Assembly: GCF_009650435.1 (NCBI RefSeq)
Contig: NZ_VVIP01000080.1
Location: 1 to 64,000 of the forward strand
Length of the DNA stretch: 64,000 nt
Reading direction: 5' to 3'
From: Foetidibacter luteolus
GTDB taxonomy: Bacteria > Bacteroidota > Bacteroidia > Chitinophagales > Chitinophagaceae
Of this stretch, positions 1-22,712 are shown piece by piece; within the stretch, counting starts at the first letter, position 1; every line of letters starts with the position of its first letter. The position numbers and the translations under genes were made by a program. The notes under the pieces were generated by a model. That model was not told where the DNA came from, made no database searches, and worked only from the letters and a program-made list of their open reading frames with translations.

Positions 1-60
1 AGCTTAACCATACAGCAACTGAGCATTATGTTCGAGGGGAGGATGGCCGCAATTTTCTAA
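1..60 (+). CDS. C-terminal end of an unidentified ORF running in from the left edge
   Basis: Frame 1 is open from the first base to a TAA at 58-60 and would encode the last 19 residues of a protein. It is followed 3 bp later by a strong palindrome that looks like a terminator, which is where the end of a real gene is expected. The stretch is too short to recognise a family, and an open frame of 19 codons can occur by chance, so it is only a likely gene end. Confidence 0.35.
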   Translation, partial: SLTIQQLSIMFEGRMAAIF

Positions 61-62
61 AA

Positions 63-114
63 ATTTTTCACGTTCCTTTTTCCGGCCATGGCCGGAAAAA
101 GGAACGTGAAAAAT
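63..114. terminator. Perfect 26-bp-arm palindrome, probable bidirectional terminator
   Basis: The two arms are perfectly complementary over 26 bp with no loop (centre between 88 and 89). The outer part is A/T (TTTTT on the left, AAAAA on the right) and the core is GC-rich (CCGGCCATGGCCGG). A GC stem flanked by T/A runs is the shape of an intrinsic terminator that works in both directions. It sits directly behind the ORF end at 58-60. Confidence 0.6.
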
Positions 115-695
115 AACCTTGACACAGTTTAAATTACACTCCCTTCCGTGCCCGTTTGGCAGTCTTCCGTATGCTTCCCTTTATCTTCCCTGTTAGCATT
201 TTTATCTTCCGCAGGTGTAAAGGCAGCTTTTCCCGGTTTCCGGCGGGCTGGCGTGAGCTGGAAAGCCAGTTTTGCCGATGGCGGGTGGGCCACCGGGGGG
301 GCTTCCCTTCATCCGCAAACCAGGGAATAGTATCTTTCGTTAGAGAAGAAGAATTATGGGCCGGACTGAAGAATAACTATGAGGCATCGTTGTGTCACTC
401 ACTTGTACGCCTTGTTCGCTATGGAGCTTTTATTAAAGCGTAGGGGGCCCGGCTAGTTCTTATGAGCATTTGGCTGCTGGAAACCAGACAAAGTCTGGCA
501 ATTATAAGCCCCCCAAAGAGCCGCAAGCTAACTCTTTAGATAGCGGGAGGACTACTGAAAATCGTTACGGCAACCCGTAACAACTATTGCAATATTTAAT
601 TTTTTTTCGCATATTGAAACGTGGCTGTTTTATCATACAACCCTGGAGCCCGCAATAATCTCTGTGAAATTGCTTCGAGAGGGGAAACAGGAAAA
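115..695. other. Gene-free stretch with repeat fragments
   Basis: Short open frames exist on both strands but none has a recognisable protein, a good start or codon use like its neighbours. The stretch holds a copy of the dispersed family-B repeat (388-431) and a perfect small hairpin CCAGAC-AAA-GTCTGG (484-498). The hairpin resembles in layout the stem-AAA-stem units at 11818-11844 and 43475-43600. Confidence 0.5.
388..431 (+). repeat. Dispersed intergenic repeat, family B (copy 1)
   Basis: The sequence reads GTTG(T/C)GTC.C(A)CTC.CTTGTACGCC TTGT.CGCTATG.AGCTTTT. Close copies are at 7600-7650, 22477-22516 (reverse), 32079-32140 (reverse) and 59884-59918. This copy has TGTGTCACTCACTTG where others have TGCGTCGCACTCTTG, and shares that variant with the copy at 32079-32140. 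Confidence 0.6.
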
Positions 696-815
696 TGAAA
701 ACCCAGTTTCATTGACGCAATACTGCTATACAAAAAACGCAATAGAATAGTACTGAGAATGAAGGGTTTATTTATATTTGAATGTGCGGCTAATGCGTCA
801 ATGCAAACGTTATGC
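696..815 (+). other. Candidate attC-like site (left end of cassette array)
   Basis: A 14-bp imperfect stem pairs 706-719 with 794-808. It includes the perfect 10-bp pair CATTGACGCA / TGCGTCAATG, and ends at GTTATGC (809-815). That last heptamer is the point where cassette 1 begins: ACGCATAAC at 2055-2063, the R'' box at the end of cassette 1, is the exact complement of GTTATGCGT at 809-817. The left R'' box of this site (TGAAAAC, 696-702) fits the consensus only in its AAC end, so this site is weaker than the two downstream ones. It could instead be an attI-like or degenerate site. Confidence 0.4.
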
Positions 816-880
816 GTCACCCTGCGACAGACCGCAGACAAGATGAAACCTTTTTTACAACTATAAAAATTAACTGATTA

Positions 881-1759
881 ATGTTTGCCAACGCATGTTC
901 ACTTGCAAGACAATTTACATTTCCTATTATTATCTCACACCGTTCCTATAACGGGCAGTGTGGTTCAGGAATTGGAACTTTTGTAATCATAAATGAGGAA
1001 GGATGGTTCGTAACTGCCTTTCATATTATTGAGCAACTAAATAAACTTGGGCTTGCAAATACTGAATATACAAATCTTGTATCTAAACGAAAAGATATAG
1101 AGGATAAAGAAGACTTAAAGAAGCATGTCAAAATGCAAATGCTCAACAACTGTAAAATTCAACCTTCATCTATAACAAACTTCTCAGTATGGTTAGGATG
1201 GGACGGTCTTTCAATTGATGGACAAATTCATGCAATACCGCAAGCAGATATAGCAGTCGGGAAGTTGAAGAATTTCAAAAAGGAAATGGTAAAAACTTAT
1301 CCTAAGTTTAAAAATCCGAATGACCCAATGGAGCAAGGGACAAGCCTATGTAAACTTGGATTCCCATTTCATTCTATTGAACCTACTTTCGATGACCATA
1401 AAGGTTTTGTTCTTCCACCTGGTTCTCTACCAATCCCTATTTTCCCAATAGACGGTATTTACACAAGAACTGTAAATATTCAAAGCAATGGAGCAAAGCC
1501 TTATCCATTGATGTTTATTGAAACCTCAACACCCGGACTTAGAGGACAAAGTGGAGGCCCTACATTCGATGTAAATGGTGCTATTTGGGCTATTCAGAGC
1601 CAAACTCATCATCTAAAACTTGGGTTTGGTGACAATCAGAAGAATTCAAAAGAAGTAGAACACCTTAAAAATCAATACTTAAATGTAGGCTGGGGAACTC
1701 ACTCTTTGACCGTTACTTCATTTTTGACAGAGAATAACATTCCTTTCCAAATTTTTTAA
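881..1759 (+). CDS. Trypsin-like serine protease (cassette-borne)
   Basis: This 292-aa protein has the three catalytic landmarks of a chymotrypsin/trypsin-fold protease: His48 in VTAFHI after a GSGIGTFVI strand, Asp123 in the ADIAV motif, and Ser224 in GQSGGP. The 63-residue gap between His and Asp holds a charged, helical insertion. No signal peptide or membrane segment is visible, so it is probably cytoplasmic, unlike DegP/HtrA proteases, and it has no PDZ domain. It is the first gene of cassette 1, which starts at 810, and its stop lies 16 bp before a small ORF that may be its partner. Codon use is AT-rich, unlike the chromosomal genes to the right. The protease fold is well supported; the substrate is unknown. 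Cytosolic trypsin-like proteases next to small proteins are known from bacterial defence systems, but that role is only inference here. Confidence 0.85.
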   Translation: MFANACSLARQFTFPIIISHRSYNGQCGSGIGTFVIINEEGWFVTAFHIIEQLNKLGLANTEYTNLVSKRKDIEDKEDLKKHVKMQMLNNCKIQPSSITNFSVWLGWDGLSIDGQIHAIPQADIAVGKLKNFKKEMVKTYPKFKNPNDPMEQGTSLCKLGFPFHSIEPTFDDHKGFVLPPGSLPIPIFPIDGIYTRTVNIQSNGAKPYPLMFIETSTPGLRGQSGGPTFDVNGAIWAIQSQTHHLKLGFGDNQKNSKEVEHLKNQYLNVGWGTHSLTVTSFLTENNIPFQIF

Positions 1760-1762
1760 TCA

Positions 1763-1770
1763 TAAATTTG
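1763..1770 (+). promoter_or_regulatory. Possible Bacteroidota -7 element (TAAATTTG)
   Basis: TAAATTTG matches the TAnnTTTG -7 consensus of Bacteroidota and lies 5 bp before the ATG at 1776. Transcription from it would start at or next to that ATG and give a nearly leaderless mRNA. No clear -33 TTG was found because the upstream DNA is the end of the protease gene. It may be a chance match in AT-rich sequence. Confidence 0.3.
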
Positions 1771-1775
1771 CATCT

Positions 1776-2024
1776 ATGACACAGGACGTACATTTCCAAA
1801 TCAACAACGGCAACTCAAATACTGTTGTTATTGAAGACGCATCAGCTTCAAGGACTTTTTGGAGCAACTACTTTACACAATCCTATGTTTCACAAAAAGA
1901 CCACTTCCAATTTCAAGGAAGTTTTGATTTAATGGGTAGACCTATTACATCAAAAAAGCCAACTCCCAAATTGACTACTCGTAAGTCATTTGGTAGAAAA
2001 CAGAGACGTTCCAAAATCAGTTAA
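1776..2024 (+). CDS. Small hypothetical protein (82 aa), second ORF of cassette 1
   Basis: No family is recognised. The protein begins with a polar, Asn-rich stretch (residues 1-20), has an aromatic middle part rich in Phe and Gln, and ends in a strongly basic tail of Lys/Arg from about residue 60. There is no signal peptide or membrane segment. It follows the protease gene after 16 bp in the same direction and ends 32 bp before the R'' box of attC1, so both genes would move as one cassette. A substrate, inhibitor or targeting partner of the protease are all possible. That it is a gene at all rests on position and open frame only. Confidence 0.5.
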   Translation: MTQDVHFQINNGNSNTVVIEDASASRTFWSNYFTQSYVSQKDHFQFQGSFDLMGRPITSKKPTPKLTTRKSFGRKQRRSKIS

Positions 2025-2056
2025 TTTCAAAGAGCTTTATTTTCAGAAGGGCGAAC

Positions 2057-2254
2057 GCATAACAGGGGGTTTGCCAAAATACGGGCTGACAGAAGTTATC
2101 TTCATCTGCGGCAATTCTATTGTGCTTCATATCCAGCTTGACGTTTACTATTTGGCTTTTAGTTATTATTTTCATCAACACATTTCCAATCAGCAGCGGT
2201 CATGGGCGGACGGAATACTAATTCCCGTACTTCGGCAAGCCCTGTTCGTTAGCC
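2057..2254 (+). other. attC-like recombination site 1 (end of cassette 1)
   Basis: R'' box GCATAAC (2057-2063) and R' box GTTAGCC (2248-2254) enclose an imperfect palindrome. The arm GGGTTTGCCAAAATACGGG (from about 2067) matches the reverse complement of the right arm, GGGCTTGCCGAAGTACGGG, at 16 of 19 positions. The predicted crossover is between G2248 and T2249. The right half, from TTCCAATCAGCAGCGG to the R' box, is nearly the same as in attC2, as expected for attC sites of one array. At about 198 bp it is long, but known attC sites also vary widely in their central part. The R'' box is complementary to the first bases of its own cassette at 810-817, the diagnostic relation for gene cassettes. 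Confidence 0.7.
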
Positions 2255-2275
2255 ACAATGCCATAACAGACCCCA

Positions 2276-3061
2276 ATGAGCATAACATTAAGACGAATTC
2301 AGAAATACAAGAAAGCAAAAAGTATTCTTGAAGAATTGCATGACAATCCTCAACATGTTTTAATCATTCACTATTCATGTGAAAGTTTCTATGACATCAA
2401 AGAAGGTCGGACACCAAGAATCACCTCAATAGCCATTCGCTACTTAAGAAGTGCTCAGACAAAAAGTTTTTCAATACATAAGGTTGCTGAAATACAAAAT
2501 TTAACATTAGCAGAAATAGAAGCACATTATAATACGCTTGAAAAACAGATGTTGACCGAATATTTTGACTTTTTAAAAGAACACAAAGATTATAAGTGGG
2601 TGCATTGGAACATGAGAGATATCAATTACGGTTTCGAGGCTTTGGAGAATAGATTTATTGTTTTGGGTGGGCAACCATTTCAATTAAATGACGACAATAA
2701 AATAGATATGGCGAGAGTGTTGATAGACAAATATGGGAATCAATACATAGGACATCCTCGACTAACTCAGCTCATTGAAAAAAACGACATCTCTGCAAAA
2801 AACCTTCTTTCAGGTGACGCAGAGGCAAAAGCTTTTGACAATAAAGAGTATGTAAAATTACACCAGTCGACACTTCGTAAAGTTGATGTTATGGACAGCA
2901 TTTTAAAACGGACTGCAGAAGGTGATTTAAAAACAAACGCTACAATGCGGCAAATTTATGGGTTGACACCACAAGGAATTTATGAACTAATTAAAGACCA
3001 TTGGCTTTGGAGTTTGATTATTTCAATAATAATGTTGTTTTTGGGTTGGTTACTTTCGTGA
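2276..3061 (+). CDS. Hypothetical protein with C-terminal membrane anchor (cassette 2)
   Basis: I do not recognise this 261-aa protein by family. An N-terminal soluble part has a beta strand followed by HYSCESFYD, and later WVHWNMRDINYGFEALENR. These loosely resemble the Exo I and Exo II regions of RNase H-like DEDD exonucleases, but the catalytic acids do not match clearly, so activity is not claimed. The last 20 residues (about 241-260, WSLIISIIMLFLGWLL) are one membrane helix, which would place the soluble domain in the cytoplasm as a tail-anchored protein. The gene is the only ORF of cassette 2. Its ATG lies 27 bp after the cassette start (2249) and its stop lies 9 bp before the R'' box of attC2, a tight fit typical of cassettes. 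Codon use is AT-rich. Confidence 0.7.
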   Translation: MSITLRRIQKYKKAKSILEELHDNPQHVLIIHYSCESFYDIKEGRTPRITSIAIRYLRSAQTKSFSIHKVAEIQNLTLAEIEAHYNTLEKQMLTEYFDFLKEHKDYKWVHWNMRDINYGFEALENRFIVLGGQPFQLNDDNKIDMARVLIDKYGNQYIGHPRLTQLIEKNDISAKNLLSGDAEAKAFDNKEYVKLHQSTLRKVDVMDSILKRTAEGDLKTNATMRQIYGLTPQGIYELIKDHWLWSLIISIIMLFLGWLLS

Positions 3062-3070
3062 AGGCACTGT

Positions 3071-3263
3071 GGCTAACATTGGGTTTTATGCAAGTTGGGC
3101 AAGACATTGTAACATCAGCTAATTGCATATCCATGCTGTGGTTCGGTCAGACGAATAACAATTAACTTTTGTACATAAATTCAACAACATTTTTTCAATC
3201 AGCAGCGGCTACGGGCAGACGGAATTCTAATTCCCAACCTGCATAAAGCCCTGTTCGTTAGCG
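3071..3263 (+). other. attC-like recombination site 2 (end of cassette 2)
   Basis: R'' box GGCTAAC (3071-3077) and R' box GTTAGCG (3257-3263) flank an imperfect palindrome. The left arm GGGTTTTATGCAAGTTGGG pairs with the right arm, whose reverse complement is GGGCTTTATGCAGGTTGGG. The predicted crossover is between G3257 and T3258. GTGGCTAAC at 3069-3077 is the exact complement of GTTAGCCAC at 2248-2256, the start of the same cassette. The block CAGCAGCGG...GGGC.GACGGAAT.CTAATTCCC is shared with attC1. Confidence 0.75.
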
Positions 3264-3283
3264 GCTATTTTAGACAACACCCT

Positions 3284-3296
3284 AATAATTTGCATA
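3284..3296 (+). promoter_or_regulatory. Possible weak promoter element of cassette 3
   Basis: AATAATTTGCATACC lies 12-25 bp before the ATG at 3309 and contains the TTTGCA part of a Bacteroidota -7 element without the exact TA spacing. A cassette needs its own promoter if no Pc promoter is near, which makes the position sensible, but the match is poor. Confidence 0.2.
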
Positions 3297-3308
3297 CCTT
3301 GTAATAAC

Positions 3309-4184
3309 ATGGACGAGATAAAGCCTTTCAATAAATTGCCAATCATTAAGTATTTCCAGCACGACTTGGAAAAAATTAAGATGGCTTATAGGCTCTCTGA
3401 CAGCATCAGAGGTGACTTAAAAAATATCCGTGCTGCTGGAGACCAAGTTGAGCTTGCGGTTAAGCAATTCTTTATTGACAAATTATTTCCTAAATATCAT
3501 GTTTGTGATGGACACATAGTTGACCGCAATCTAAAAGCTAGCCCACAATACGATATTATTATTTGCGAAAACTCTAAAAATCCAGTTTTATTCAATCTGG
3601 CTGATAAATCGGAAATTATTTTTTATGAAACAGTCTTTTGCTTCGGTGAGGTTAAAAAGTCATTCTATGACAAAGACCTTCTTACTGATTTTGCCGAAAA
3701 TATTAAACGAACCAAACATGAACTAGTAAGAGATGAAATTCCAAGTAATTTTATTGAGTGTGCAAATTCAGGCTTCCACGTTGAAGAAGCATTGACAACA
3801 CTTCCATATCGAAATCCATTATTAAGCTTTATGCTCTTTATAAATAGTTCTGGTGTGTCCTTTCCCAAACTATCAGAAATGTTGAACGATATTGAAAATA
3901 AAAACTGCCCGAATTTTATAACCTTCTTAGATGCTGGAATTATCATCAATGTTAATAAAGCAGATTTTGAAAAAGGAAAGATTACGATAAACCTCTATCC
4001 AGAGTTTGAAAAAGAAGAAAGTGTTTGGGTACTAATGGATTTGCAAGGTGAAAATAATGTACTGACTTACCATTACCTATTAATCGTAGAACATTTAAAC
4101 AATTCAATAGTATCAATTCCAAATCTTCGGGATTATACGAGGAATATATTTGATTTTTCATTTTCAAACTTTCATAAAATATGA
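3309..4184 (+). CDS. DUF6602-like protein with PD-(D/E)xK-type nuclease motifs
   Basis: This 291-aa soluble protein matches my memory of the DUF6602 family: an N-terminal helical part, a GDQVE helix (about 44-48), a strand run leading to SPQYDIII with Asp82, and GEVKK with Glu114 and Lys116. The order Asp, then Glu-x-Lys after a strand is the core of the PD-(D/E)xK nuclease fold. The family is found near restriction and phage-defence genes, so a nuclease role is plausible but not shown. It is the first gene of cassette 3 and its stop overlaps the start of the next gene (ATGA at 4181-4184), so the two are translated together. The region is AT-rich. The family assignment is from memory and would need a profile search. 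Confidence 0.65.
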   Translation: MDEIKPFNKLPIIKYFQHDLEKIKMAYRLSDSIRGDLKNIRAAGDQVELAVKQFFIDKLFPKYHVCDGHIVDRNLKASPQYDIIICENSKNPVLFNLADKSEIIFYETVFCFGEVKKSFYDKDLLTDFAENIKRTKHELVRDEIPSNFIECANSGFHVEEALTTLPYRNPLLSFMLFINSSGVSFPKLSEMLNDIENKNCPNFITFLDAGIIINVNKADFEKGKITINLYPEFEKEESVWVLMDLQGENNVLTYHYLLIVEHLNNSIVSIPNLRDYTRNIFDFSFSNFHKI

Positions 4185-5233
4185 ATTTCGCAACTCTTAA
4201 AATAGCAAGTATTGACAGAATAATTGCTCATGAAATACATGCTAAAACTGAAAAAAGTGATGCTTATGCAAAAATAAATAAGGCATTACTTAAATTTAAG
4301 CAAGCGGAAAAAGATATTTTAATTGTGCGCATTCTTGAAGCTCTTAGTAACAGCACAAAGACCTTTCAATTAGACTACGAAGATAAATCTGCGGACAGTG
4401 TATATAGCCTAATGACTAAAATTAAGAAGCTTGACGATAAAGAATTTATTACCTCATCCGCAACATTAGCAAGTAATTTAGCAGACGCACATTTTAGAAC
4501 AAAAATACCTGGCGGATATTGCTTGATAGGAAACGGGTTAACTACTAATAAAAAGTTTTTCTTTTTTGTAATTAAAGCGGAGTTACAGGAAGTTTTCAAT
4601 GTTCATAATAATGAACTAACATTAATAAAGGATGTATTCCTTTCACCAGCAAAAGACTTTTACAAAATTGGTTTTTTTATTGAAAGTGGGAGTTCATTCA
4701 TCCCCTATATGTATGACGACCAATTTTCCATGCAAAAGAAAGATTTAACTGAATACTTTTATAGTGCATTTCTAGGTTTGACAACTGATAAAAACGACAG
4801 GCTCAAAGCAAAAAATTTCTACGATGACACAAAAAACTTTATTGAAAGCAATGTAGATGAAATTCATGACAGACTTGGCTTGCTAAAAGCTTTGAATGTT
4901 TTATATCGGGAAGACGCTAGTGGTTTGATTTCAGCTAAGGAATTTTCTGACAATTATTTTGAGGGAGATTTAAAATCAAAATATGAAAAGAAGATTGTTG
5001 CAGAGAAATATCCTCTTTCATTTACTAAAGACATTTCACTTATTGAGCACAAGTTAGAAATGCAGAGAGTTTCAATTCCTCTTTCATATACAATGACAAT
5101 TGTGGGCAGTACAGCCGAACTTGAGGACTTAGATATTATTGACGACCCAAGTAGACAAACTTTAAGAGATTTAGAACCACAAATAAACAATGGACAAATT
5201 AGAAAGCTTGTGGTTTTAAAACAAGCAACTTAA
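4181..5233 (+). CDS. NdpA/NA37-like nucleoid-associated protein (cassette 3)
   Basis: This 350-aa protein has the features of the 37-kDa nucleoid-associated family (YejK/NdpA). The N terminus starts with IASIDRIIAHEI. A central strand region, FFFFVIKAELQEVFN (about residues 126-140), is followed by a DVFLSPAKDFYKIGFFIE segment (about 153-170), which is a hallmark of the family. Such proteins bind DNA or single-strand ends, and some phages carry inhibitors of them. Here the gene is translationally coupled by 4 bp to a DUF6602-like gene inside one mobile cassette, which suggests that the two work together. It ends 20 bp before the R'' box of the last attC. There is no signal peptide or membrane helix. 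The family call is by motif memory. Confidence 0.6.
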   Translation: MNFATLKIASIDRIIAHEIHAKTEKSDAYAKINKALLKFKQAEKDILIVRILEALSNSTKTFQLDYEDKSADSVYSLMTKIKKLDDKEFITSSATLASNLADAHFRTKIPGGYCLIGNGLTTNKKFFFFVIKAELQEVFNVHNNELTLIKDVFLSPAKDFYKIGFFIESGSSFIPYMYDDQFSMQKKDLTEYFYSAFLGLTTDKNDRLKAKNFYDDTKNFIESNVDEIHDRLGLLKALNVLYREDASGLISAKEFSDNYFEGDLKSKYEKKIVAEKYPLSFTKDISLIEHKLEMQRVSIPLSYTMTIVGSTAELEDLDIIDDPSRQTLRDLEPQINNGQIRKLVVLKQAT

Positions 5234-5253
5234 ACTTCGGAGAGGACAAAACA

Positions 5254-5441
5254 GCCTCTAACGAAAGTATTGCCAAAAGCGGGGCGGACGGAATATCAAT
5301 CATCAGCAAATCGCTATTGTGCATCAACCGGGCTTGACGGAATTCTCTTGCCCTCGTTGGTGTTCATGTGCCCGGAATGCCCATGCAGGTGTTGTCACCT
5401 GCATGTACAATGCTCATTCGAAGCTCTCATGCACAATAGCG
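5254..5441 (+). other. Truncated or remodelled attC-like site 3
   Basis: GCCTCTAAC (5254-5262) is the complement, with one mismatch, of GTTAGCGGC at 3257-3265, the start of cassette 3, so it should be the R'' box. The next segment resembles the left half of attC1 (TATTGTGC.TCA...GCTTGACG). No matching right arm or R' box follows. Instead there are nested perfect hairpins: CGCTATTGTGCAT (5312-5324) pairs with 5429-5441, and inside it CATGCAGGTG (5382-5391) pairs with 5396-5405 over a TTGT loop. The dispersed repeat at 5461 begins soon after and may have replaced the right arm. Confidence 0.5.
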
Positions 5442-5460
5442 AACTAAATCTTTTCTTCCC

Positions 5461-7599: not shown

Positions 7600-7691
7600 G
7601 GCCGCCGTTGCGTCGCACTCTTGTACGTTTTGTCCGCTATGCAGCTTTTCAGCCCGGTTATGTTGGTGCGTGGAGACACGCACCAGGGCGT
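7600..7691 (+). repeat. Dispersed repeat, family B (copy 2) with terminal hairpin
   Basis: GTTGCGTCGCACTCTTGTAC is followed by TTTTGTCCGCTATGCAGCTT, and the copy ends in a perfect hairpin, GGTGCGTG-GAGA-CACGCACC (7665-7684). It lies in the spacer between susC and susD. The ORFs crossing it are not genes. Confidence 0.75.
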
Positions 7692-7693
7692 AG

Positions 7694-8012
7694 GAATATC
7701 GAACAAGGAACAAGGAATAATGAATGAAGAATGAAAGCCCCCCATTCACCATTCACCATTCACGATAAGAATATCGAACAAGGAACAAGGAATAATGAAG
7801 GAAGAATGAAAGCCCCCCACTCACCATTCACCATTCACGATAAGAATATCGAACAAGGAACAAGGAATAATGAAGGAAGAATGAAAAGCCCCCCACTCAC
7901 CACTCACCATTCACCATTCACGATAAGAATATCGAACAAGGAACAAGGAATGCTGAAGGAAGAATGAAAGCCCCCCACTCACGATTCACCATTCACCATT
8001 CACCATTCACCA
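7694..8012. repeat. Four tandem copies of a 75-83 bp unit built from heptamers
   Basis: Copies start at 7694, 7769, 7844 and 7927 (spacing 75, 75, 83). Each begins GAATATC, then GAACAAG, GAACAAG, GAATAAT and GAA-rich units, and then CCCCCCA followed by a run of CAYTCAC heptamers. The 83-bp copy has one extra heptamer. Because seven is not a multiple of three, spurious ORFs run through the tract in several frames. Confidence 0.9.
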
Positions 8013-11959: not shown

Positions 11960-14900
11960 CTACTGTTTTACCAGTTTTACATTAAACACTTCGCCGTTGA
12001 TATGTACTTTAAGTACATACACGCCCTGGGGTAATACGGGCACATTGTTTAACGGCATGCGTACATTGCTGCGCCAGCCGGCTATTGTGTTGCGGTACAA
12101 CAACTTGCCATCCAGCGAGAATATTTCTGCCTTGTCTGTGGCCGCACTTGTGCCTGTGCCGTTGATGAGCAGCGACAGGGTGCTGGTGAACGGATTGGGC
12201 GAAGCGGACACATGCAACTGGCCACCGCCGCCATTCAAATCAATTGGCACTATGTTACTCAGCAACGGTTTGCCATCCCAGTCTTCCTGGCGCAGGCGGT
12301 AGAATATCCTGCCGGTGTTAAGCACAGCCGCGTCGCGGTCCGTAAACTGGTAGTAGCGGGTACTGCTGCTGTTGCCTGCGGCTTTAACCGTACCGATATC
12401 TGTGAAGTCGCGGCCATCTATGGAACGCTGTACCACAAACTGCTTGGTATTTATTTCTGTTGCAGTACCCCAGTTGAGCAACACATCTTTGTTTTTCTGC
12501 TGGCCGGTAAAGAACAACCAGCTTACCGGTAACGGAGAGCCATCCAGCTCAACACTTACATCGCAGGCATCTTTCAGGGCTTCGCGGTTGCCTACGTTAT
12601 CCGTGGCAATGGTAAAGAAGCAATACTTGCTGCCCGGTTTGCCGGCAAAGTTGAAAGTGTTGGTGCTGAACACGCTGTCGTAGCGCTGGAACTCACCATC
12701 ATTTTCGGAGTAGTACAGTTCGTAAGCGGATTTGAGGCCGCTGCCGCCTGCATCATCGGCAGCCTGTACAGACAAGGTGATAACCGAGTTCTGCTCAACT
12801 TCCAGCGAAGAAGCTATTACGGAAGATACCGGCGCCACGGCATCTACAATGTTTACATGCGTATTGGTTTCGATAGGCGCATTAATATCGAATACGATAC
12901 CTGCTTTAGCCACGATGCTGTCGCCCGTAACTGTGCTGGCCGATGGCCTTACAGAGTAGCTTACGAAGCCTTCGCCGCTGCCGATAGAATCGTTGATGGC
13001 CAGGTAGCCGGCATACGGGTCGGTAGGCGGCAGGCCGGTTGCAGGGTCAATTGACTGGAACACCCAGAATATTTCCCGGTTTACGATATCAAGACCGGCA
13101 GTAACCTGCACGTTGAAGCCCAGTGAATCGGCCAGGTTAAGCGTTGTGGTATAGCTTGACAACCCTGCAGGCACGTTAAACACATAGTTGCGGAAGCCGA
13201 AGCTGCCCAGCGTGATGCTGCCGGCGTTTACATGCTCATCCAACGGCTGGCGTATCCTAACCCTTTGTGCCGCTGTGGTAGCAAAATCCGGGTCATTTTC
13301 ATACAGTATGGTATAAGTAAGTGTTTCATTTTTAGCCACCATCTTGGTTGGGCCATAACCTGCGGGGCCCTGTATCTCATTCGGGTCGCAGGAGGCCACC
13401 ACCGGTTTACAGATAAGCCATTTGACCGCCTTGCCCGGCAGGGTAAGGTTACCGGACAAACAGGTGACCGCACCGGAACCGCAAACAAAGCCTGCTACGA
13501 AGGCGCCTGCTGCCGCACCGGCGCCGGCGCCAAAGAAGGCACCCACGCCAAAGGCTGCCGCGCCACCCACAGCACCGACGGCCGTACCGCCTGAAACAAA
13601 CAGGCTATAGCAACCGTAACCGGTTATGCCGCAACCCACCAGCCATGGAATACCCTGGCAGGTAAGGAAGTCTGGCTGAGGAGGCGTACAAGGCATGCCG
13701 GAGCCACCACCACCGGGACCGCCGCCCGGGCCACCACCAGGACCACCGGGGCCACCGGGACCGCCCGGAGAGCCAGGACCGCCTGGACTACCCGGAGAAC
13801 CAGGACCACCGGGGCCACCGCCGCCGGGGCCACCGGGACCGCCTGGGCCACCCGGACCGCCGCCCGGGCCACCAGGACCACCGGGACCGCCCGGACCACC
13901 AGGGCCACCCGGGCCGCTACCCGGACCACCAGGACCGCCGGGGCCACCCGGACCACCGGGGCCGCCTGGGCCACCAGGACCGCCAGTACCACCGGGGCCG
14001 CCATCACCACCATCACCACCGGGCTGGCCGGGGCCGCCTGGGCCGCCAGGACCACCAGGGCCGCCGGGACCGGGATCGTTCACACCATCGCCGGGGCCGC
14101 CTGGGCCACCAGGGCCACCGGGACCGGGAGGCGTTGTGCCATCGCCTGGGCCACCAGGGCCGCCAGGGCTACCCGGCTGGCCGGGATGGCCTGTACCACC
14201 GGGAACACCCGGCTGCCCAACACCCGGAACAAAGGCGGTGAAACATAACATAAGTGTATCCGTTCCCCTTAACGATATGGAGAATGAACCACCATAGAGG
14301 CTGTTGTGCGCTACAAAATCCGTAGCATCTATACTGAACTTGTTTACATTAAAATTGGTAAAGCCGCCATCTGCTATGGCTATTGGCCAGCAGGTATCCA
14401 CACCAGGGTACCAGCCGCCCAGGTAACCCGGGGTATTGGACAGTGAAAGCGATGCCAGTTGAACTACAAAACGGTTAGCCGGTGTAGCGGAAACATCTAT
14501 TGTGCCTGCGGCATGTATAAGGTCCCAACCGGGATCCTGCCCGGCAGCGCCGCTGTAGCTGTTGATTTCCCAGCGGTAAGACAGGCCCGGGCCAAAGGTA
14601 GCCGATGCCACATTCAGCAGGCCGGGGCTGTTGCCGGGGTTAAAGGTCGCCGTATTCGTTCCGTCGCTGTCCGGCGCACCGCAGGCGGCACACTCGCCAT
14701 CCACACCGATGGTATCGGCAGGGGTAAGCAGGCCCATCTTGAAGTACTCAGCCAGCAGCACATTCCTGAACGGCACTTTGTTTTTAGCCAATGCTGTAAA
14801 TTCAGGGCTGTTGGCAAACTTGCCTGGGTTATTCAGCTCTACCGTACGCATCTGTTCGATGGTACCGTATTGCTTCTGCACAAATTCTTTCACAGAATAA

Positions 14901-17900
14901 CCTTCGGCCCCCGCACCCACCGAGTAAGTACCGGAAGTAAACTTATCCAGCAGCAGGGTTACACTGTATTGTTCACCACTCAGCAGGTTACGGGTAAAGA
15001 ACGGTATCAGCTTGAATTTGCCCAGCACCGCGTAATCTTCAAACTTCAGGGTGTCGCCATACGGGTTCATCTGCTGGCGTGTCTTCACATTGCCCTCTGT
15101 GGATATTTTTGCAACATTAGACGCTGCCGGGATAACCACCTGCGACTGCACGAACGGAATATCCACATTGCCCGTGTTGCGGAAGTTGATGGTATAGAAC
15201 GCGTTCCTGCCGATGCGCAGCACTTCAGGCGCTGCTACATAATAATCAATGCGGTAACCTGTTGATTTCTGTACATTAACCGCGGCGGCCAGCTTGGCCT
15301 CTTTGGCATCAGGGTTAACCGCTACAAGGTCGTAAGTGCCTATGGCAACGGAAGTTAAATCCCATACAACCTTGGCCTGCATGCTGTTGATAAGTGTAAG
15401 GCCAACCACCTGGGCCCCTGCCACAACAGTTGCGCCTTTCATCAGTTTAAACTGTACACCCGGCCTCAGGCCCGCGCCTTCCACGTTGGTAGTGACCACA
15501 CCCTGCCCTACATTTTTAGGAGTGGATGAGGTAAGCGAGAAGCTTAATGCCCTTGCCAGCAAGGTGGCTTCCTGCGAGCCTGCATCGTAAGTGGATGTTA
15601 CCAGCAGGTAATAGCTGCCGTTTTGCGTTTCGGGCACTATCAGCCTTTGCGCAGCCTGCTGCGGCAGGTTGCCTTTGGCGTCGTAATCATTAGGCGTAGG
15701 TATGCGGTTGTACGCTATGTAGAACTCGTTGTGCGCCGCTGTTTTGTTGCTGGTAAGGTCAACCACCATATCCAGCCCGGCCCCTACCTGTATTTTGTAG
15801 TACCTGTTGGCGCCGGTACGCAGGATGGTTTTGGATGGGGTATTGAGTACCAGTTCACGAATGCCTACCCCTATCTGTGCATCAGTGGCCTTAGTATTGT
15901 TGGTAAGATCCACTTCCGGCACTGTACCGAGGATATTGGTACGTCCGATACCATAATAATCACCAGGGAAGACTGATTCTACGCTGTTGACGATAGAGAA
16001 GGAACTGTCTTTGCCAGGCTCCAGCAGGATGTTCTTCTGAGCAGTACCAAACAACGTTGATTGCAACGCGTTAAACGAAGTGTTCTTTGAGAAGTACACC
16101 GCATCACTTAGCGAACCTACGGCCGGTCTTGAGCCAATATTCCTGATGGTATAAGAAGCGGTAATAGTATCGCCCAATTGTGTTGTACCCGGCATGTTGA
16201 TGTTGCTTACAATAAGGTCTGCCGGTTCTGCAAGCACAATTTCTGTAACAGCATTCTTAGCGTTGTTGTTCTCCTTGTCGTTCTCAAATATGCCGTTACT
16301 GGCATCGGCCACCACCACTATGTAATAATTACCGGAAAGGTTTGGCGGAATGGTTGCCAGTATGCTGTCTTTATAGCCTGCACCCGCGGCCAAAGGCCCT
16401 TTCTTAGCGGTGCTGCCCAACAATACACTGCCGCTGCCGCCTGATGGAGATGAGCTTACATACACCGCATCGTTCCAGCTCTGCACATCCCTGATGTTAC
16501 CGGGGCCCAGGTTGGTTACCGCATACGGTATTTTAACCTGCTGGCCTGCATACAATTTAGCCGGTGCGCTTACACTGTTAACGATCAAATCAGGCGGAGG
16601 CGTAAGCTTAATAGTGATACTTCTGTAGAAGAAGTTATTGCCACGTATGGTATCCAGCGCGGCATTGTTACCATCTGCAGCCAGCACCAGGAAGTATTTA
16701 CCTGATACGCCGTTCGGGATAGGCAGGGTGATGCTCTGCGTATAGGTTTGACCTGCACTGGCGCCGGATTTGGATACGGATGCAAGGAACTTATCGTTTA
16801 CATCCAGCAGGCTGTCCTGGCTTAGGAATACCTGGTCGTACCAGTTGGCGGTGGTTGCCTTACTAGTATTGTTCTTCACCCTTATCTGCACGGTTTTTTG
16901 ATCGCCGGAGTTGAAATCGCCGGTGAAGCTGATATCCTGCGCCTGTAGATCAATGTAGTTCTTCTCAACAATTGGTATGGTAGTCACAGGCGGCTCGCCA
17001 ATTACCGGCGGCTTACCGCTTGCCGATGAAGCACGGACGTTATTGGCTTCGGATTTTTCAAAAACATTATCCCCATAATCTGTTACCACAAAGAAGGTAA
17101 CAGAATCCGGCGCGGTTGCAGGCAGTGTTACCACCGCTGTTCCGGCGCTGGATGCGCCTTTGTCTATATTAACAACATGGCTGTATGAACCCAGTTGTTT
17201 AGCCGTGCCGGGGTCGAAGGTTTTGCTGGCTGACCAGAACACCCAATCATTAAACGAAACCGGCCCGGTGGCTTTATCGCCTGTATTGGTTACAGACCAT
17301 GTGATAACGAATGGTTTGGTACGTGTGATGGAATCCGGCAACTTAATGCTGGCCACCACCAGGTCCGGCCTGTCGCCCACTACGATATTAACCGGGTTAG
17401 CACTGCGCTTAACATTGTTGCTGTCTTTATTGAATTCAAACACATTGCCCAACGCGTCTGTATAAACATACACATAGTAATTGCCGCTGAATGTTCTTGG
17501 TATGGCAAAGGAGCCTGTTTCGGTGTATTCCTCTCCATTAAGCAGCGGGTTAGACAGGTTATGGTTATAAGCCCTGCTGCCTAACAAAATAGCCTGCGCA
17601 TCAAAAGTGCTGCTCTTTGAAAGGTAAACCCTGTCTGTCCATTGTGATTCACGTGGCGGGTTAGCACCCTCGTTGGCAACCGTCCAGGTAACCTGCATGT
17701 TCTCGTTGGCATTGGCAGTTGCCGGCGCGGTAACGATGGATGGAACAAGGTCGGCTGGCGGTGTAAGAAGCACTACCAGGGAATCGCTGCGGTAATAGTT
17801 GTTTTGGGTAAAGGCTTCAAAGAACCCTTTCATGTTGGCTACCACATAAATGTAGTAAGTACCCTGGTACTCGTAAGGTATCTTCACCTTAACCGCGTGG

Positions 17901-20900
17901 CGGTAAGTACTGTCAACCTTTAACGTATCGCCGGTAACGGTGCAACCGCCACCCAGCGTGCCCAGGCGGATATCTGTTTCTGTTAGCAGCCTTGCAGTAG
18001 CATAGCTGAACTCAGGTTCTTTAGAGATGTAAATGTTGTCTTTCCAGTAATGCTCTTTGGCAGTACCTGACGGTGTGCAGCTACGGTTGTAGGTTAACTC
18101 ACCCACGGCAGGTGCTACGCCAATATTGCGTGCCTGGTATTGAACAGTGATACTGTCGCCTGAGAATACATCGGTAGGTACACCCAGCGACTCAACAGAA
18201 AGATCAGGCAATGGCGGCAGTGTGAGCGTAACCGGTTTGTAAATAAAGTTGTTCTGGTCATCAGACTCACGGAAAGATATGGAGTGGTGCCCCCTGCTGG
18301 TGGCGCACACATCCCCTATCAACTGCCAGCAATAAGCATCGTTGGCATTGGTGATGATGAATATGTAGTAAGTACCCGTAATGCCCTGCGGCAGTTGTAT
18401 CTGTTTTGTCTGCAGGTAGCTCTGCCCGGGGTTCAGGTAAGACTGGTTATCAAATTCACCCAGCAATATATCGTCGGCCACCCTTAAATCCAGGTCTTGC
18501 GACAACCAGATATAGTCCTTCCACTTTTTATCTTTGGTTCCACCTTCGCCGATGTTTTTGGTTTCCCAGCTAACGGTTATTTTACCATTGGCCACCGCGT
18601 TATCCGGCATTTCGTAGCTGTTCACAATCAAATCCGGCAATGAACCTGTAGAGAAAGTCTGCACAGGCCCATCGGTTGAGAAACAGGTATTTTGGGCTAT
18701 TACCTGCCAGTTGTAGCTGTTACCCAATTGAGCGGATGGATATTGATAACTGATATCCTCAATGTTGTTGGCTGACGGGGACGAAGGCCTTGCTTCTCCT
18801 GCAACCCAAACATACACATCGTAGAAAGCCGCATTGGCAGACGGCGCCCATGACAGGCGTACCGGCGGGTCAAGGTTAAGGGTACTGTCAATCGGCAGCA
18901 TGTTGGTTACAATGGCTGGCGCTACCGCGGCGTTAACGCTTACAGCAATGCTGTCGCTATAGCTGCAGCCGTTGCCATAAGTACCGGTAACATAGTACAC
19001 CGTATTAACGGTTGGGTGCGCCCTGGCCGTATCTTTATTGCTGCCATTGCTCCAGTTAAATGTTTTGGCGCCTGTTACAGACAATGTTATGGTATCGCCA
19101 AGGCAAAGCGAAGCGGCAGGTGCGGCCTTAACAACAGGAAGGCCCGATATTTTCACTTCAAACAGGGCCGACTGGGCTATACAGCCATTGCTGTTGGCAT
19201 AGCGCACAAAATAACTGCCTGCTACAGATGCCGTATAAGTAACCGCTGAATCAAGCTTGATGGCGTCGTTGCCTTCCAGCCTGAACCATTGCACTTTGCC
19301 GGTGAGATTGGTTTTAAGCGAAACGGTTTCAGCACTACACACATCATTCTTCACTGCGCTGATAACCGGGGTGGTTAGGGCCGGCAGCACATTAACTTTA
19401 ACGGAAGCCGTTGATGAACAACCGTTGGCATCTGTTATCTCCACGGTATAAGTAGTGGTATCTGTAGGCGATACCTGTATTACAGCCGTGGTGGCACCCG
19501 TGTTCCATTGATAATTTACACCACCGTAAGCGCTGAGGTTAACCTGCGTGCCGCTGCATATAGTAACACCGGCTGATGCGCCTTTTGCTGTTGGTGTATA
19601 ATGTGTAACTGCTGTTCTGATGGTATCGTTGATACGGCGCTCATCACCAGCAAGAGAAGCATACACTTCAAATTGGTAAGCCCTGTATGCGGAAAGGTCA
19701 ACAGTGGTATTGAAGGTGTAATCCGCAGTAGCGCCGGGCTGTATGGTAGCTGTGTATTTGCGGGTAACTTTTGTACCGCCATCCACAGCGTACACCACAT
19801 CAAAATTAGCGGCAGCATCAGTACCGGCATTGAACAGCCTTACTTTTACAACACTGGCAGCAGAAAGGCCGCAGCCATTTTCGGGGTTTACCAGTTGTGT
19901 TACCTGTATGTCTTTGGCTACAGGCGATTTTACTTCAAAGCTTTGCGAAGTGCTGGCCGGGCTATAGTTCTGGTTACCTGCCTGCCTGGCCGTAACGGTT
20001 ACCTGCCCTACACCGGTAAGTGTAATAATATTACCGCTGATGGTGGCTACACCAGTTGCCGGCACTGTACCAATGCTGTAAGTAACGGGCAGCCCTGAAG
20101 AAGCGGAAGCAGTTACCCCAAAGGATGGGTCGCCGGCGGTTTTATCCGGTATGGCTTCCATGGTAACCGTTTGGCTTATACGCGTAATAGTAAACGTATC
20201 CTTGGCCGTGCCGCCATAGTTGCTGTTACTGATGGTGGCAATTACTTCGTACTTGCCGGCATTAACAGGCGGCTGGCTGCTGCCATTGTAGGTAAGCGTA
20301 TAAGAAAGCCCACCCGGGTTGGTGGTTACTGTTGGCGCTTTCTGTGTACCCGTGTAAGCCTGCTGCAGGTTGCTGAACGTAACGGTAGCAGCGGCTTTAC
20401 CCACTTCAATATAAGATACCGCAGATGCTTCATAAAATTCTTCATTACCTGCCTGGAACGCACGTACTGCTATTATACCCGCACCATTGATAAACACAGT
20501 ATCATCCTTTACTGTGCCGGGGCCATACCACAGACTGTAAGTAACAGGCAGCGATGATGAAGCTGTTGCCTTAAGCAAATAGTACGCATCCCCATAAGTA
20601 AGCGCTGGCTGTGCGGGGAAGGTAATGGTCTGGTTCTTTCTGAAGCTGTAATTGTACGCGGCTGATTTAGGCCCGGTACCACAGGGCGTGGTATAGCTTA
20701 CCGTGTAATTGCCGTAGTTGGTACCCGGGTAATAGTAGCTGTTGGTAGCGCCTGAAATGGCGCTGCCATCCTTATACCACTGGTAGGCAGCCACAGCTTC
20801 TGAGCCGGAAGGCGCAGACGCGTAGAGATAAGAGCCGCTTTCTGTAATAACCGGAATTTGCGTAGGCGTATTGTTGTACACCCTAACCTGGATGGAGTTC

Positions 20901-22525
20901 TCGTAGCCGGTGCCACAACCGTTAGACGCGGTGGCCTTCAGGTTAAAGACGCCGGTGGTTGTCCAGGTAACTTTCGCGGTGGTTGAACCACCTGCGGTAT
21001 CCTGCAGGTTGCCGCCGCCGCTGAGCAGCCAGGTGTATTTAGCACCCGGGCCGGCTGAACCGGTAACCGTGTATTCTTCTGTAGAAGTACACACGGCACT
21101 CTTGCCGGATATATAGAAATATTGTTCTGGTTTTCTGGTAATGGTAATGTTGGCACTGTTGGCCGCGCTGGTATCGAACGGAGAGCTGGCTACAATGCGT
21201 ATGCGGTAACCTGTACCCGCCGCTGTATTAGCTGGTATGGTGGCGCTGATGGTGCTGTCTTCATTGGCATTAAGGGTGCCGATGTTAACAGGGTTATTAA
21301 AGCTGCCGCTGCTGTTAGATAGCTGGGCGGTAAACACATTATTGGTGCCGAACGGCGCCGTTACAGTAAACGGAACTGATACCGGTGCACCGGCGCAGAA
21401 GCTGGCGCCAACGGTACCGATAACCACACGTACATCAGTAGGCGCATCTATCTTAAAGCTGCCCACATTGGTAATGCTCCAGTTGCCCCTTTCATCTTTT
21501 GCACGCACAAACACCTGGTGGTTGCCAATGGATATCTTGCTCATATCCAGTTGAAACACCAGGTTAGTGATATCTGTAGAAGGCGTGATGTTTACTTTAG
21601 TGCCTTTGCCAAAGCCGGGGTCTGTATCTACAAAATATTCCAATGCAGATACTTTTGCCAACGGCGATTCCGCAGATATGGAATCCCTGTAAAAAGCACG
21701 GGTGCTGGTAAGGCCCCAGTTGCCATTCGCATCACGGTAACGGCTGAACAATTGGTGGAAGCCGGTTGAAAGAGACGTTACATTAACGGAGAATGCAATA
21801 TTGGTTAAATCCGCGCCGGCAGTAAGCGGTATGTTGGTGGCTTTACCAAAACCGGGGTCTTTGTCCACAAAATACTCGCCCTTTACAATATTGGGCGGGT
21901 TCCCTAAATCCACAGGTACGCCCTCTTTATAAAATGTTCGTTTTTGAGAAAGGCTCCACTTGCCATCCGCATCCCTGAAGCGCACAAAAATGTTGTGGAA
22001 GCCGTTAGCGAGGGAATTGATGTTAACAGAGAATGCAACGTTGGTTACATCTTTTGCCTGCGTAAACGAAATGTTGGTTGCCTTTCCAAAGCCGGGGTCT
22101 TCATCAACAAAGTATTCGCCTTTAACTATGTTTGGAAGGTTGGGCACATCGGTTGGAAAGGTTTCTTTAAAGAAAGTCCTCCGCTGCACCAGCGACCAAC
22201 CGCCCCTTGCTTCCGCGCCGGTACCGGTAGGCGGCACAAAGGCCCTTACATACAACTGGTGAAAACCGGTTGTATAAGCGTTTAGGTTAAACTGGAAGGT
22301 GGCAGTTACATCTGTACCCGGTGTAATGCTGATAGCGGTGGCATTGCCAATACCGGGGTCAGCGTCAATAAAATACTCGGCCCGTGTTACATTCTGCGCA
22401 TGGGCCAGCGGCGGGGCCAGCAATGATGCCATAACGCACAGGGCGTATACATAAACCAGGGAAGTACGCGATGCTGCCCAATAGCGGACAAGGCGTACAA
22501 GAGTGCGACGCAACGGAAGCTTCAT
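11960..22525 (-). CDS. Giant multi-domain T9SS-secreted surface protein with CARDB and collagen-like repeats
   Basis: About 3,520 aa. The start was placed at the MKLPLRRTL codon because a signal peptide follows (hydrophobic core to PPLAHAQ); the frame is open to 22690. Four repeats of about 78 aa come first, each with EYFVD.DPGFGK and a F.R.D..G.WS motif. Next are Ig/PKD-like domains and MBG-like domains (LTYGD; SNYGG), then about seven CARDB-like repeats beginning DLIV/DLVV/DLSV (about DNA 18640-15900). A collagen-like G-P-G tract follows (13690-14220), then a Gly/Ala-rich hydrophobic stretch, a CDPNEI.GP DUF11-like region with YTI.YEND, an Ig-like domain, and a C-terminal T9SS sorting domain (ASPNPF...GVYVLKV...VKLVKQ). 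It is probably anchored at the cell surface as an adhesin or matrix protein. It lies behind the beta-helix gene at 22713 in the same direction, probably in one operon. Confidence 0.9.
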   Translation of the reverse strand: MKLPLRRTLVRLVRYWAASRTSLVYVYALCVMASLLAPPLAHAQNVTRAEYFIDADPGIGNATAISITPGTDVTATFQFNLNAYTTGFHQLYVRAFVPPTGTGAEARGGWSLVQRRTFFKETFPTDVPNLPNIVKGEYFVDEDPGFGKATNISFTQAKDVTNVAFSVNINSLANGFHNIFVRFRDADGKWSLSQKRTFYKEGVPVDLGNPPNIVKGEYFVDKDPGFGKATNIPLTAGADLTNIAFSVNVTSLSTGFHQLFSRYRDANGNWGLTSTRAFYRDSISAESPLAKVSALEYFVDTDPGFGKGTKVNITPSTDITNLVFQLDMSKISIGNHQVFVRAKDERGNWSITNVGSFKIDAPTDVRVVIGTVGASFCAGAPVSVPFTVTAPFGTNNVFTAQLSNSSGSFNNPVNIGTLNANEDSTISATIPANTAAGTGYRIRIVASSPFDTSAANSANITITRKPEQYFYISGKSAVCTSTEEYTVTGSAGPGAKYTWLLSGGGNLQDTAGGSTTAKVTWTTTGVFNLKATASNGCGTGYENSIQVRVYNNTPTQIPVITESGSYLYASAPSGSEAVAAYQWYKDGSAISGATNSYYYPGTNYGNYTVSYTTPCGTGPKSAAYNYSFRKNQTITFPAQPALTYGDAYYLLKATASSSLPVTYSLWYGPGTVKDDTVFINGAGIIAVRAFQAGNEEFYEASAVSYIEVGKAAATVTFSNLQQAYTGTQKAPTVTTNPGGLSYTLTYNGSSQPPVNAGKYEVIATISNSNYGGTAKDTFTITRISQTVTMEAIPDKTAGDPSFGVTASASSGLPVTYSIGTVPATGVATISGNIITLTGVGQVTVTARQAGNQNYSPASTSQSFEVKSPVAKDIQVTQLVNPENGCGLSAASVVKVRLFNAGTDAAANFDVVYAVDGGTKVTRKYTATIQPGATADYTFNTTVDLSAYRAYQFEVYASLAGDERRINDTIRTAVTHYTPTAKGASAGVTICSGTQVNLSAYGGVNYQWNTGATTAVIQVSPTDTTTYTVEITDANGCSSTASVKVNVLPALTTPVISAVKNDVCSAETVSLKTNLTGKVQWFRLEGNDAIKLDSAVTYTASVAGSYFVRYANSNGCIAQSALFEVKISGLPVVKAAPAASLCLGDTITLSVTGAKTFNWSNGSNKDTARAHPTVNTVYYVTGTYGNGCSYSDSIAVSVNAAVAPAIVTNMLPIDSTLNLDPPVRLSWAPSANAAFYDVYVWVAGEARPSSPSANNIEDISYQYPSAQLGNSYNWQVIAQNTCFSTDGPVQTFSTGSLPDLIVNSYEMPDNAVANGKITVSWETKNIGEGGTKDKKWKDYIWLSQDLDLRVADDILLGEFDNQSYLNPGQSYLQTKQIQLPQGITGTYYIFIITNANDAYCWQLIGDVCATSRGHHSISFRESDDQNNFIYKPVTLTLPPLPDLSVESLGVPTDVFSGDSITVQYQARNIGVAPAVGELTYNRSCTPSGTAKEHYWKDNIYISKEPEFSYATARLLTETDIRLGTLGGGCTVTGDTLKVDSTYRHAVKVKIPYEYQGTYYIYVVANMKGFFEAFTQNNYYRSDSLVVLLTPPADLVPSIVTAPATANANENMQVTWTVANEGANPPRESQWTDRVYLSKSSTFDAQAILLGSRAYNHNLSNPLLNGEEYTETGSFAIPRTFSGNYYVYVYTDALGNVFEFNKDSNNVKRSANPVNIVVGDRPDLVVASIKLPDSITRTKPFVITWSVTNTGDKATGPVSFNDWVFWSASKTFDPGTAKQLGSYSHVVNIDKGASSAGTAVVTLPATAPDSVTFFVVTDYGDNVFEKSEANNVRASSASGKPPVIGEPPVTTIPIVEKNYIDLQAQDISFTGDFNSGDQKTVQIRVKNNTSKATTANWYDQVFLSQDSLLDVNDKFLASVSKSGASAGQTYTQSITLPIPNGVSGKYFLVLAADGNNAALDTIRGNNFFYRSITIKLTPPPDLIVNSVSAPAKLYAGQQVKIPYAVTNLGPGNIRDVQSWNDAVYVSSSPSGGSGSVLLGSTAKKGPLAAGAGYKDSILATIPPNLSGNYYIVVVADASNGIFENDKENNNAKNAVTEIVLAEPADLIVSNINMPGTTQLGDTITASYTIRNIGSRPAVGSLSDAVYFSKNTSFNALQSTLFGTAQKNILLEPGKDSSFSIVNSVESVFPGDYYGIGRTNILGTVPEVDLTNNTKATDAQIGVGIRELVLNTPSKTILRTGANRYYKIQVGAGLDMVVDLTSNKTAAHNEFYIAYNRIPTPNDYDAKGNLPQQAAQRLIVPETQNGSYYLLVTSTYDAGSQEATLLARALSFSLTSSTPKNVGQGVVTTNVEGAGLRPGVQFKLMKGATVVAGAQVVGLTLINSMQAKVVWDLTSVAIGTYDLVAVNPDAKEAKLAAAVNVQKSTGYRIDYYVAAPEVLRIGRNAFYTINFRNTGNVDIPFVQSQVVIPAASNVAKISTEGNVKTRQQMNPYGDTLKFEDYAVLGKFKLIPFFTRNLLSGEQYSVTLLLDKFTSGTYSVGAGAEGYSVKEFVQKQYGTIEQMRTVELNNPGKFANSPEFTALAKNKVPFRNVLLAEYFKMGLLTPADTIGVDGECAACGAPDSDGTNTATFNPGNSPGLLNVASATFGPGLSYRWEINSYSGAAGQDPGWDLIHAAGTIDVSATPANRFVVQLASLSLSNTPGYLGGWYPGVDTCWPIAIADGGFTNFNVNKFSIDATDFVAHNSLYGGSFSISLRGTDTLMLCFTAFVPGVGQPGVPGGTGHPGQPGSPGGPGGPGDGTTPPGPGGPGGPGGPGDGVNDPGPGGPGGPGGPGGPGQPGGDGGDGGPGGTGGPGGPGGPGGPGGPGGPGGPGSGPGGPGGPGGPGGPGGPGGGPGGPGGPGGPGGGGPGGPGSPGSPGGPGSPGGPGGPGGPGGGPGGGPGGGGSGMPCTPPQPDFLTCQGIPWLVGCGITGYGCYSLFVSGGTAVGAVGGAAAFGVGAFFGAGAGAAAGAFVAGFVCGSGAVTCLSGNLTLPGKAVKWLICKPVVASCDPNEIQGPAGYGPTKMVAKNETLTYTILYENDPDFATTAAQRVRIRQPLDEHVNAGSITLGSFGFRNYVFNVPAGLSSYTTTLNLADSLGFNVQVTAGLDIVNREIFWVFQSIDPATGLPPTDPYAGYLAINDSIGSGEGFVSYSVRPSASTVTGDSIVAKAGIVFDINAPIETNTHVNIVDAVAPVSSVIASSLEVEQNSVITLSVQAADDAGGSGLKSAYELYYSENDGEFQRYDSVFSTNTFNFAGKPGSKYCFFTIATDNVGNREALKDACDVSVELDGSPLPVSWLFFTGQQKNKDVLLNWGTATEINTKQFVVQRSIDGRDFTDIGTVKAAGNSSSTRYYQFTDRDAAVLNTGRIFYRLRQEDWDGKPLLSNIVPIDLNGGGGQLHVSASPNPFTSTLSLLINGTGTSAATDKAEIFSLDGKLLYRNTIAGWRSNVRMPLNNVPVLPQGVYVLKVHINGEVFNVKLVKQ
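13690..14220 (-). repeat. Collagen-like low-complexity tract inside the giant gene
   Basis: About 530 bp of GC-rich DNA encode mainly Gly-Pro-Gly-Gly and Gly-Pro-Gly units, with a few breaks (GDG, GQPGG, GVND, GTTPPG). The opposite strand carries a long Pro-Pro-Gly ORF (13695-14297), which is a shadow of the repeat. Tracts of this kind change length easily by replication slippage. Confidence 0.9.
22477..22516 (-). repeat. Family-B repeat inside the signal-peptide coding end of the giant gene
   Basis: The minus strand reads GTTGCGTCGCACTCTTGTAC, then GCCTTGTCCGCTATTGGGCA. In frame this gives LRRTLVRLVRYWA, the basic n-region of the predicted signal peptide. The same sequence is intergenic elsewhere (388, 7600, 32079, 59884). 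Confidence 0.7.
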
Positions 22526-22712
22526 CAAGGCTTCGCCAGCCGGGCCCATAAACATACTACCCGGTGAGAAAAGGCCCGATCCTGCTTTACCCGTTGCAGT
22601 ACCCGGAGGTTTTTGAAAGCGTAAAAATTGCAGCATAAAAGGGATATGAGCGGAAACCGGCGCAGCACAACACACCACGTGGCTGTGCAAGACTGGCGGT
22701 TACCGGGGTAAA

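Follow-up and report, generated by a model that had tools for sequence, protein, structure and literature searches.

The window analyzed here, a stretch of 64,000 nt from Foetidibacter luteolus, very likely carries an orphan array of gene cassettes from an integron-like system that would move its cassettes by recombination and whose linked recombinase is not IntI. The genome contains attC-like sites, gene cassettes and attI-like left ends, and in relatives a tyrosine recombinase is linked to such arrays. By analogy, we infer for this recombinase a role like that of an integron integrase, with attC sites in folded single-stranded form as its substrates. A sequence-only reading of the window had proposed an integron-type cassette array, and both the covariation of the stems and signs of cassette exchange support that proposal.

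The array comprises three cassettes in the same orientation (Table 1). Its left flank derives from a transposase: window positions 1-814 are 84% identical to L044 1123-1987, where the ORF is Transposase_mut (PF00872, 1.7e-103). Directly after the transposase end, at 63-114, lies a perfect 26-bp palindrome without a spacer. The sequence-only reading had run the array from 690; the first cassette does start where it had been placed, but the segment ahead of it is a repeated, attI-like element and not an ordinary cassette site. That each cassette start is complementary to the cassette's own end, the decisive sign for that reading, is borne out at all three boundary pairs, i.e., GTTATGCGTc/GTTATGCGTt for cassette 1 (809 against 2054-2063 reverse-complemented), GTTAGCCACA/GTTAGCCACA for cassette 2 (2248 against 3068-3077) and GTTAGCGGCT/GTTAGAGGCT for cassette 3 (3257 against 5253-5262). 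The first 8 kb of the window contain 4466 GTT/AAC pairs at spacings of 0.4-2.5 kb; in only two of them are the 6 nt adjoining the triplet perfectly complementary as well, and these are the ends of cassettes 1 and 2. The two palindromic sites that had been noticed are recovered by the covariance model, each complete site being ~200 nt long. At the third, expected near 5254, the boundary pair is present but the site has decayed, with its left half alone matching (11 bits, E 0.036, in the covariance model; 21 bits over 5256-5345 in a separate search). A perfect 14-bp inverted repeat, TCGCTATTGTGCAT/ATGCACAATAGCGA, occupies 5311-5324/5429-5442 at this right edge. In PADLOC, the first gene of cassette 3 matches PD_DExK (1.7e-17) and NucC (1.2e-6). 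Elsewhere in the window are tandem repeats of 75-83 bp (...AAGAATATCGAACAAGGAACAAGGAATAATGAAGGAAGAATGAAAGCCCCCCA..., 7667-7999) and, at 11960-22690 on the minus strand, a gene for a 3576-aa protein that includes an extended Gly/Pro-rich segment (GGPGGPG), with a local GC content of 0.64.

Table 1. Features of the cassette array and its left flank, in window coordinates.
Feature	Position	Strand	Remarks
IS256/Mutator-type transposase, C-terminal end	2..60	+	flank, outside the system
attI-like left end of array	707..808	+	inverted repeat CATTGACGCA...TGCGTCAATG, then CAAAC, then first GTT
Gene cassette 1	809..2063	+	R' GTTATGCGTC at start, R'' AACGCATAAC at end; ends complementary
Cassette 1 gene, trypsin-like peptidase domain protein, 292 aa	881..1759	+	Pfam Trypsin_2, E 1.1e-6
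Cassette 1 second ORF, 82 aa, without known family	1776..2024	+	
attC-like site 1	2054..2257	+	covariance model 163 bits, E 1.6e-43
Gene cassette 2	2248..3077	+	R' GTTAGCCACA, R'' TGTGGCTAAC; ends complementary 10/10
Cassette 2 gene, 261 aa, without confident family, hydrophobic C-terminal stretch	2276..3061	+	
attC-like site 2	3068..3266	+	covariance model 180 bits, E 6.2e-48
Gene cassette 3	3257..5262	+	R' GTTAGCGGCT, R'' AGCCTCTAAC; one mismatch
Cassette 3 gene, DUF6602, PD-(D/E)XK/NucC-like, 291 aa	3309..4184	+	Pfam DUF6602 2.5e-17
Cassette 3 second gene, 350 aa, without known family	4181..5233	+	
Decayed third attC-like site and right edge of array	5253..5442	+	left half alone recognizable

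The attC-like sites are palindromic, span 130-205 nt and lie at the cassette end. Across 40 aligned sites, 15 of the 19 predicted pairs show two-sided compensatory change; 94.4% of cells are paired, and there are 211 compensatory cells, compared with 77 after shuffling and at most 36 when the partners are slid. The spacer between the R and L boxes typically measures 3 nt on one side and 5 nt on the other, with an invariant A opposite C. In 49 of 61 sites, the bottom-strand stem is the more stable, and energy folding gives an L stem without a bulged base in 48 of 61. In bottom-strand folds of the window sites, which the sequence-only reading had proposed as a check, the R and L boxes come together, but single-sequence folds are only moderately better than shuffles (z-scores of -1.4 and -2.4). 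The strong structural evidence is the covariation over 40 sites, rather than these single-sequence folds. An Rfam search found no relevant family, and phage records contained no match to the site. An exact 17-mer of the attC L'' arm, TTTTATGCAAGTTGGGC, occurs in five viral contigs (IMG/VR, L291-L295).

Sites of this kind are numerous in the genome. Part of site 2, used as a query against the assembly (7,284,804 bases in 95 contigs), matched 42 times, with the matches spread over about 20 contigs. In 148 kb of array stretches, a profile built from sites that had been detected by structure scored 101 hits, of which 78 cover nearly the full site length. The complementarity of cassette ends is general: with a cassette's first ten bases set against the reverse complement of its last ten, 60 consecutive site pairs agree at a mean of 6.2 of 7 variable positions (41 perfectly), whereas shuffled cassette ends agree at a mean of 3.3, with 3.8 the largest of 2000 shuffles. 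The box consensus is GTTRNNNGCA for R' and TGCNNNYAAC for R'', such that the first and last ~10 nt of cassettes are complementary. Cassettes carry one, sometimes two, forward genes. The longest ORF is forward in all 52 cassettes checked, starts at a median of 29 nt past GTT and usually stops 10-30 nt ahead of the cassette end. Most cassette genes have no known function; single members match ThsB (Thoeris), HamB (Hachiman), RraB and several DUFs.

Tracing each array's first cassette leftwards led to a recurrent left-end element. The copy in the window has six further copies in the genome, on contigs C40, C15, C55, C41, C47 and C8, making seven in total. The alignment of six attI-like copies stops at GTT. 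The arrays also bear marks of exchange. Those on C46 and C88 have one common cassette, 99% identical, followed by different cassettes, and the switch falls exactly at GTT; a cassette on C20 has an 82%-identical counterpart in another genus, with similarity beginning inside the R' box and the upstream sequence differing. Bottom-strand folds without the two-box stem, and an identical gene order in all relatives with no sign of exchange, had been named as findings that would speak against a cassette array; stems supported by covariation and signs of exchange were found instead.

A search for a tyrosine recombinase (intI) had also been proposed. The wider group has a linked recombinase that is not IntI, represented in this genome by fragments alone: contig C39 opens with an in-frame C-terminal part (C39:2-202) and continues into the start of a cassette, and C47 retains an N-terminal piece (C47:4863-5084) 98 nt ahead of an attI-like copy. 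There is no intact copy in the 7.3-Mb assembly, and since fragments alone were found, the genome may lack one or may have one that was left out of the assembly. The window array is accordingly regarded as an orphan platform. All TIGR02249 matches in the genome fall below the cut-off, which removes canonical IntI as a candidate. Another candidate, a recombinase adjoining sites on C76 and C39 (L043 and L090), was set aside as part of a mobile element: judged by reading of its ORFs, a tyrosine recombinase and an IS91-type transposase, the element appears to be IS91-like. Its end, GGTTTAGTTCAAC, directly adjoins the AAC with which attC R'' boxes close (L043:7712, L090:4857, L039:4390 and 5834, and L076 in G007), as if the R'' box were the target of the element.

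In relatives, the recombinase gene was first seen on the same strand as the left-end element, ending about 100 nt ahead of it. A scan of named genomes yielded 80 relatives, the majority from Chitinophagaceae and other Bacteroidota. Linkage to arrays was sought de novo, from complementary ends and palindromic arms alone. An attI-like element and first cassette lie downstream of 32 of 105 recombinases and, in divergent orientation, upstream of a further 7, compared with 0 in shuffled flanks. Three of the 32 (L237, L241 and L242) are canonical IntIs that belong to other classes of the phylum. In the first arrangement (type 1), the attI-like element lies on the same strand, mostly 55-310 nt past the stop codon of the recombinase gene; in the second (type 2), it is upstream of a divergent recombinase. 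The attI consensus reads TTTCGTATATTTATGA and leads straight into GTT. Profile-detectable sites are downstream of the recombinase, and upstream in one locus only. Some family members have no visible array alongside, some of these being on contigs broken just there. Plasmids, too, have elements of the system: an Emticicia plasmid has a site, and a Chryseobacterium plasmid has a recombinase with cassettes. On the latter (L289:7122-11698), copies of a 148-nt palindrome, GGCCAGCTCGGCTT...AAGCCGAGCTGGCC, lie between the cassettes near the recombinase.

The recombinase is a tyrosine-type protein of ~385 aa with SAM-like and catalytic domains; the catalytic residues R241, K269, H330, R333, H356 and Y365 are invariant in 30 sequences. 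In the literature, IntI is described as a subfamily set apart by an extra domain that it needs for activity (PMC3053210, PMC8138268, PMC2426708). Against VchIntIA (2a3v), the recombinase aligns in two stretches that skip chain residues 183-245, and comparison with an IntI of the phylum (L235) identifies the skipped part as the IntI insertion. The insertion is thus absent from the recombinase in comparisons with VchIntIA, phylum IntIs and L235, and the protein is therefore not filed as IntI. In a quick tree, eight IntI rows form their own clade with a support of 100, with type 1 and type 2 recombinases outside it; several long branches make the finer placement unsure. The structure model of one representative, P0001, has a mean pLDDT of 85 and includes a confident N-terminal domain of ~80 aa, for which a Pfam search gave nothing above the cut-off. 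A structure search with the full P0001 model matched XerA and IntI structures. A HARP-like identity for the N-terminal domain was considered and dropped, as nothing in Pfam was above the cut-off and the structural matches fell on the recombinase core.

Three other accounts of these arrays can be weighed against an integron-like system with its own recombinase. The arrays could be CALINs produced by a canonical IntI that has been lost or is plasmid-borne, the neighboring recombinase being incidental. Canonical IntI does occur elsewhere in the phylum, in 93 of 345 sampled genomes, and is common outside Bacteroidia; among the Bacteroidia of this phylum sample, it was found in one genome only, of the same order, while site matches occur both inside and outside the class. 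Within the family Chitinophagaceae, a single genome of 246 has an IntI above the cut-off, a pseudogene (G173), whereas the site covariance model matches 177 of 246 genomes and 85 of 103 genera. The new recombinase (E<=1e-70) is present in 94 of the 246, and 88 of these 94 also have sites (Fisher p 3e-10), although 89 of the 177 site-bearing genomes have no recombinase match at this threshold. Together with the recombinase at the attI end in 39 of 105 loci, these counts make an origin from canonical IntI quite unlikely. That the palindromes are instead dispersed repeats of the MITE/REP type, spread by a transposase and only incidentally spaced by genes, is scarcely credible: sites are indeed numerous, scattered and alike in sequence, and IS91-like ends abut some of them, but complementary ends specific to each cassette are not expected of repeats and in the main refute this account, as do the forward ORFs that fill 52 of 52 intervals, the conserved left-end element and the switches exactly at GTT.

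The remaining alternative concerns chemistry rather than origin, and holds that type 1 and type 2 recombinases act in the manner of dif/Xer on double-stranded sites rather than on folded single strands. The catalytic core resembles the XerA type at least as much as IntI; the best NCBIfam model for P0001 is NF040815 (218.7 bits, cut-off 220), ahead of TIGR02249 (189.1 bits, below its cut-off). The lack of the IntI-specific insertion points the same way. However, the L stem conserves pairing rather than sequence, a trait of attC sites that work as single strands, and one strand gives the more stable stem, so that we consider double-strand action unlikely.

Under the preferred reading of an integron-like system, the recombinase would bind the attC of a circular cassette in its folded single-stranded form, probably as the bottom strand. 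This attC would then recombine with a double-stranded attI at G/TT of the R' box, and the cassette's own R' would thereby become its left end. Because the recombinase lacks the IntI domain and most sites appear to lack an L-stem bulge, this chemistry is assumed by analogy. The window array was presumably filled earlier or is served in trans by an unassembled recombinase copy, given that the remaining recombinase fragments stand alone beside attI-like copies. The system thus appears to work like an integron, yet its recombinase fails an IntI-defining feature. On balance, we favor the idea of a second kind of integron integrase, one that lies outside the IntI clade, lacks the extra domain, reads long folded attC sites in another way (perhaps through its N-terminal domain), serves several attI platforms per genome in both orientations on chromosomes and plasmids, and sustains a cassette economy across Bacteroidia.

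Integrons have been described as scarce in Bacteroidetes, with one complete integron, in Salinibacter (PMC9024848). By contrast, sites of the present kind occur in about 70% of sampled family genomes, and the linked recombinase family (E<=1e-80) in about half of sampled Bacteroidia (189 of 395 genomes, not all of which need be array-linked). Among the journal papers searched for integrons in Chitinophagaceae and Bacteroidota, we found no description of this system. These observations point to an overlooked, widespread gene-capture system in Bacteroidota. If this is confirmed, a large stock of cassette genes, the majority without a known function and some of them defense genes, would have gone unnoticed, and the origin of single-strand site recognition would become testable with a second, structurally different integrase.

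Among known arrangements, the sequence-only reading had likened the array to a CALIN, i.e., a cluster of attC sites without an integrase (PMC9024848). The likeness holds in that no integrase lies beside the window array, but it is incomplete, because the array keeps its own attI-like end and relatives in the wider group have a linked recombinase that is not canonical IntI. XerA, XerC, XerD and the "site-specific tyrosine recombinase/integron integrase" family NF040815 share the catalytic core; the recombinase described here differs from them in having the extra ~80-aa N-terminal domain and in adjoining cassette arrays. In Treponema integrons, intI is transcribed toward attI (PMC3607928). They resemble the present system in that the recombinase is co-directional with the cassettes, attI lies past the stop codon and some attC sites are long (115 and 132 bp), but they rely on a canonical intI, and their attC has a protruding G. 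The canonical IntI genes at L237, L241 and L242 also follow the Treponema direction, with an attI-like GTT and a cassette 150-170 nt past the stop codon. The closest parallels are with sedentary chromosomal integrons, in which cassettes of forward genes likewise have an attC-like site with complementary R''/R' boxes (AAC/GTT), structure is conserved while sequence varies, and many-cassette arrays start at an attI-like element and exchange at GTT. The extrahelical bases of canonical attC matter for recognition by IntI (PMC3053210), and known IntIs read them (PMC3053210, PMC8138268). The present system differs from sedentary chromosomal integrons in that its L stems mostly appear to lack extrahelical bases, its recombinase has no IntI insertion and an additional N-terminal domain, its R boxes extend over ~10 nt (GTTRNNNGCA), and its attI-like element is present in several copies per genome.
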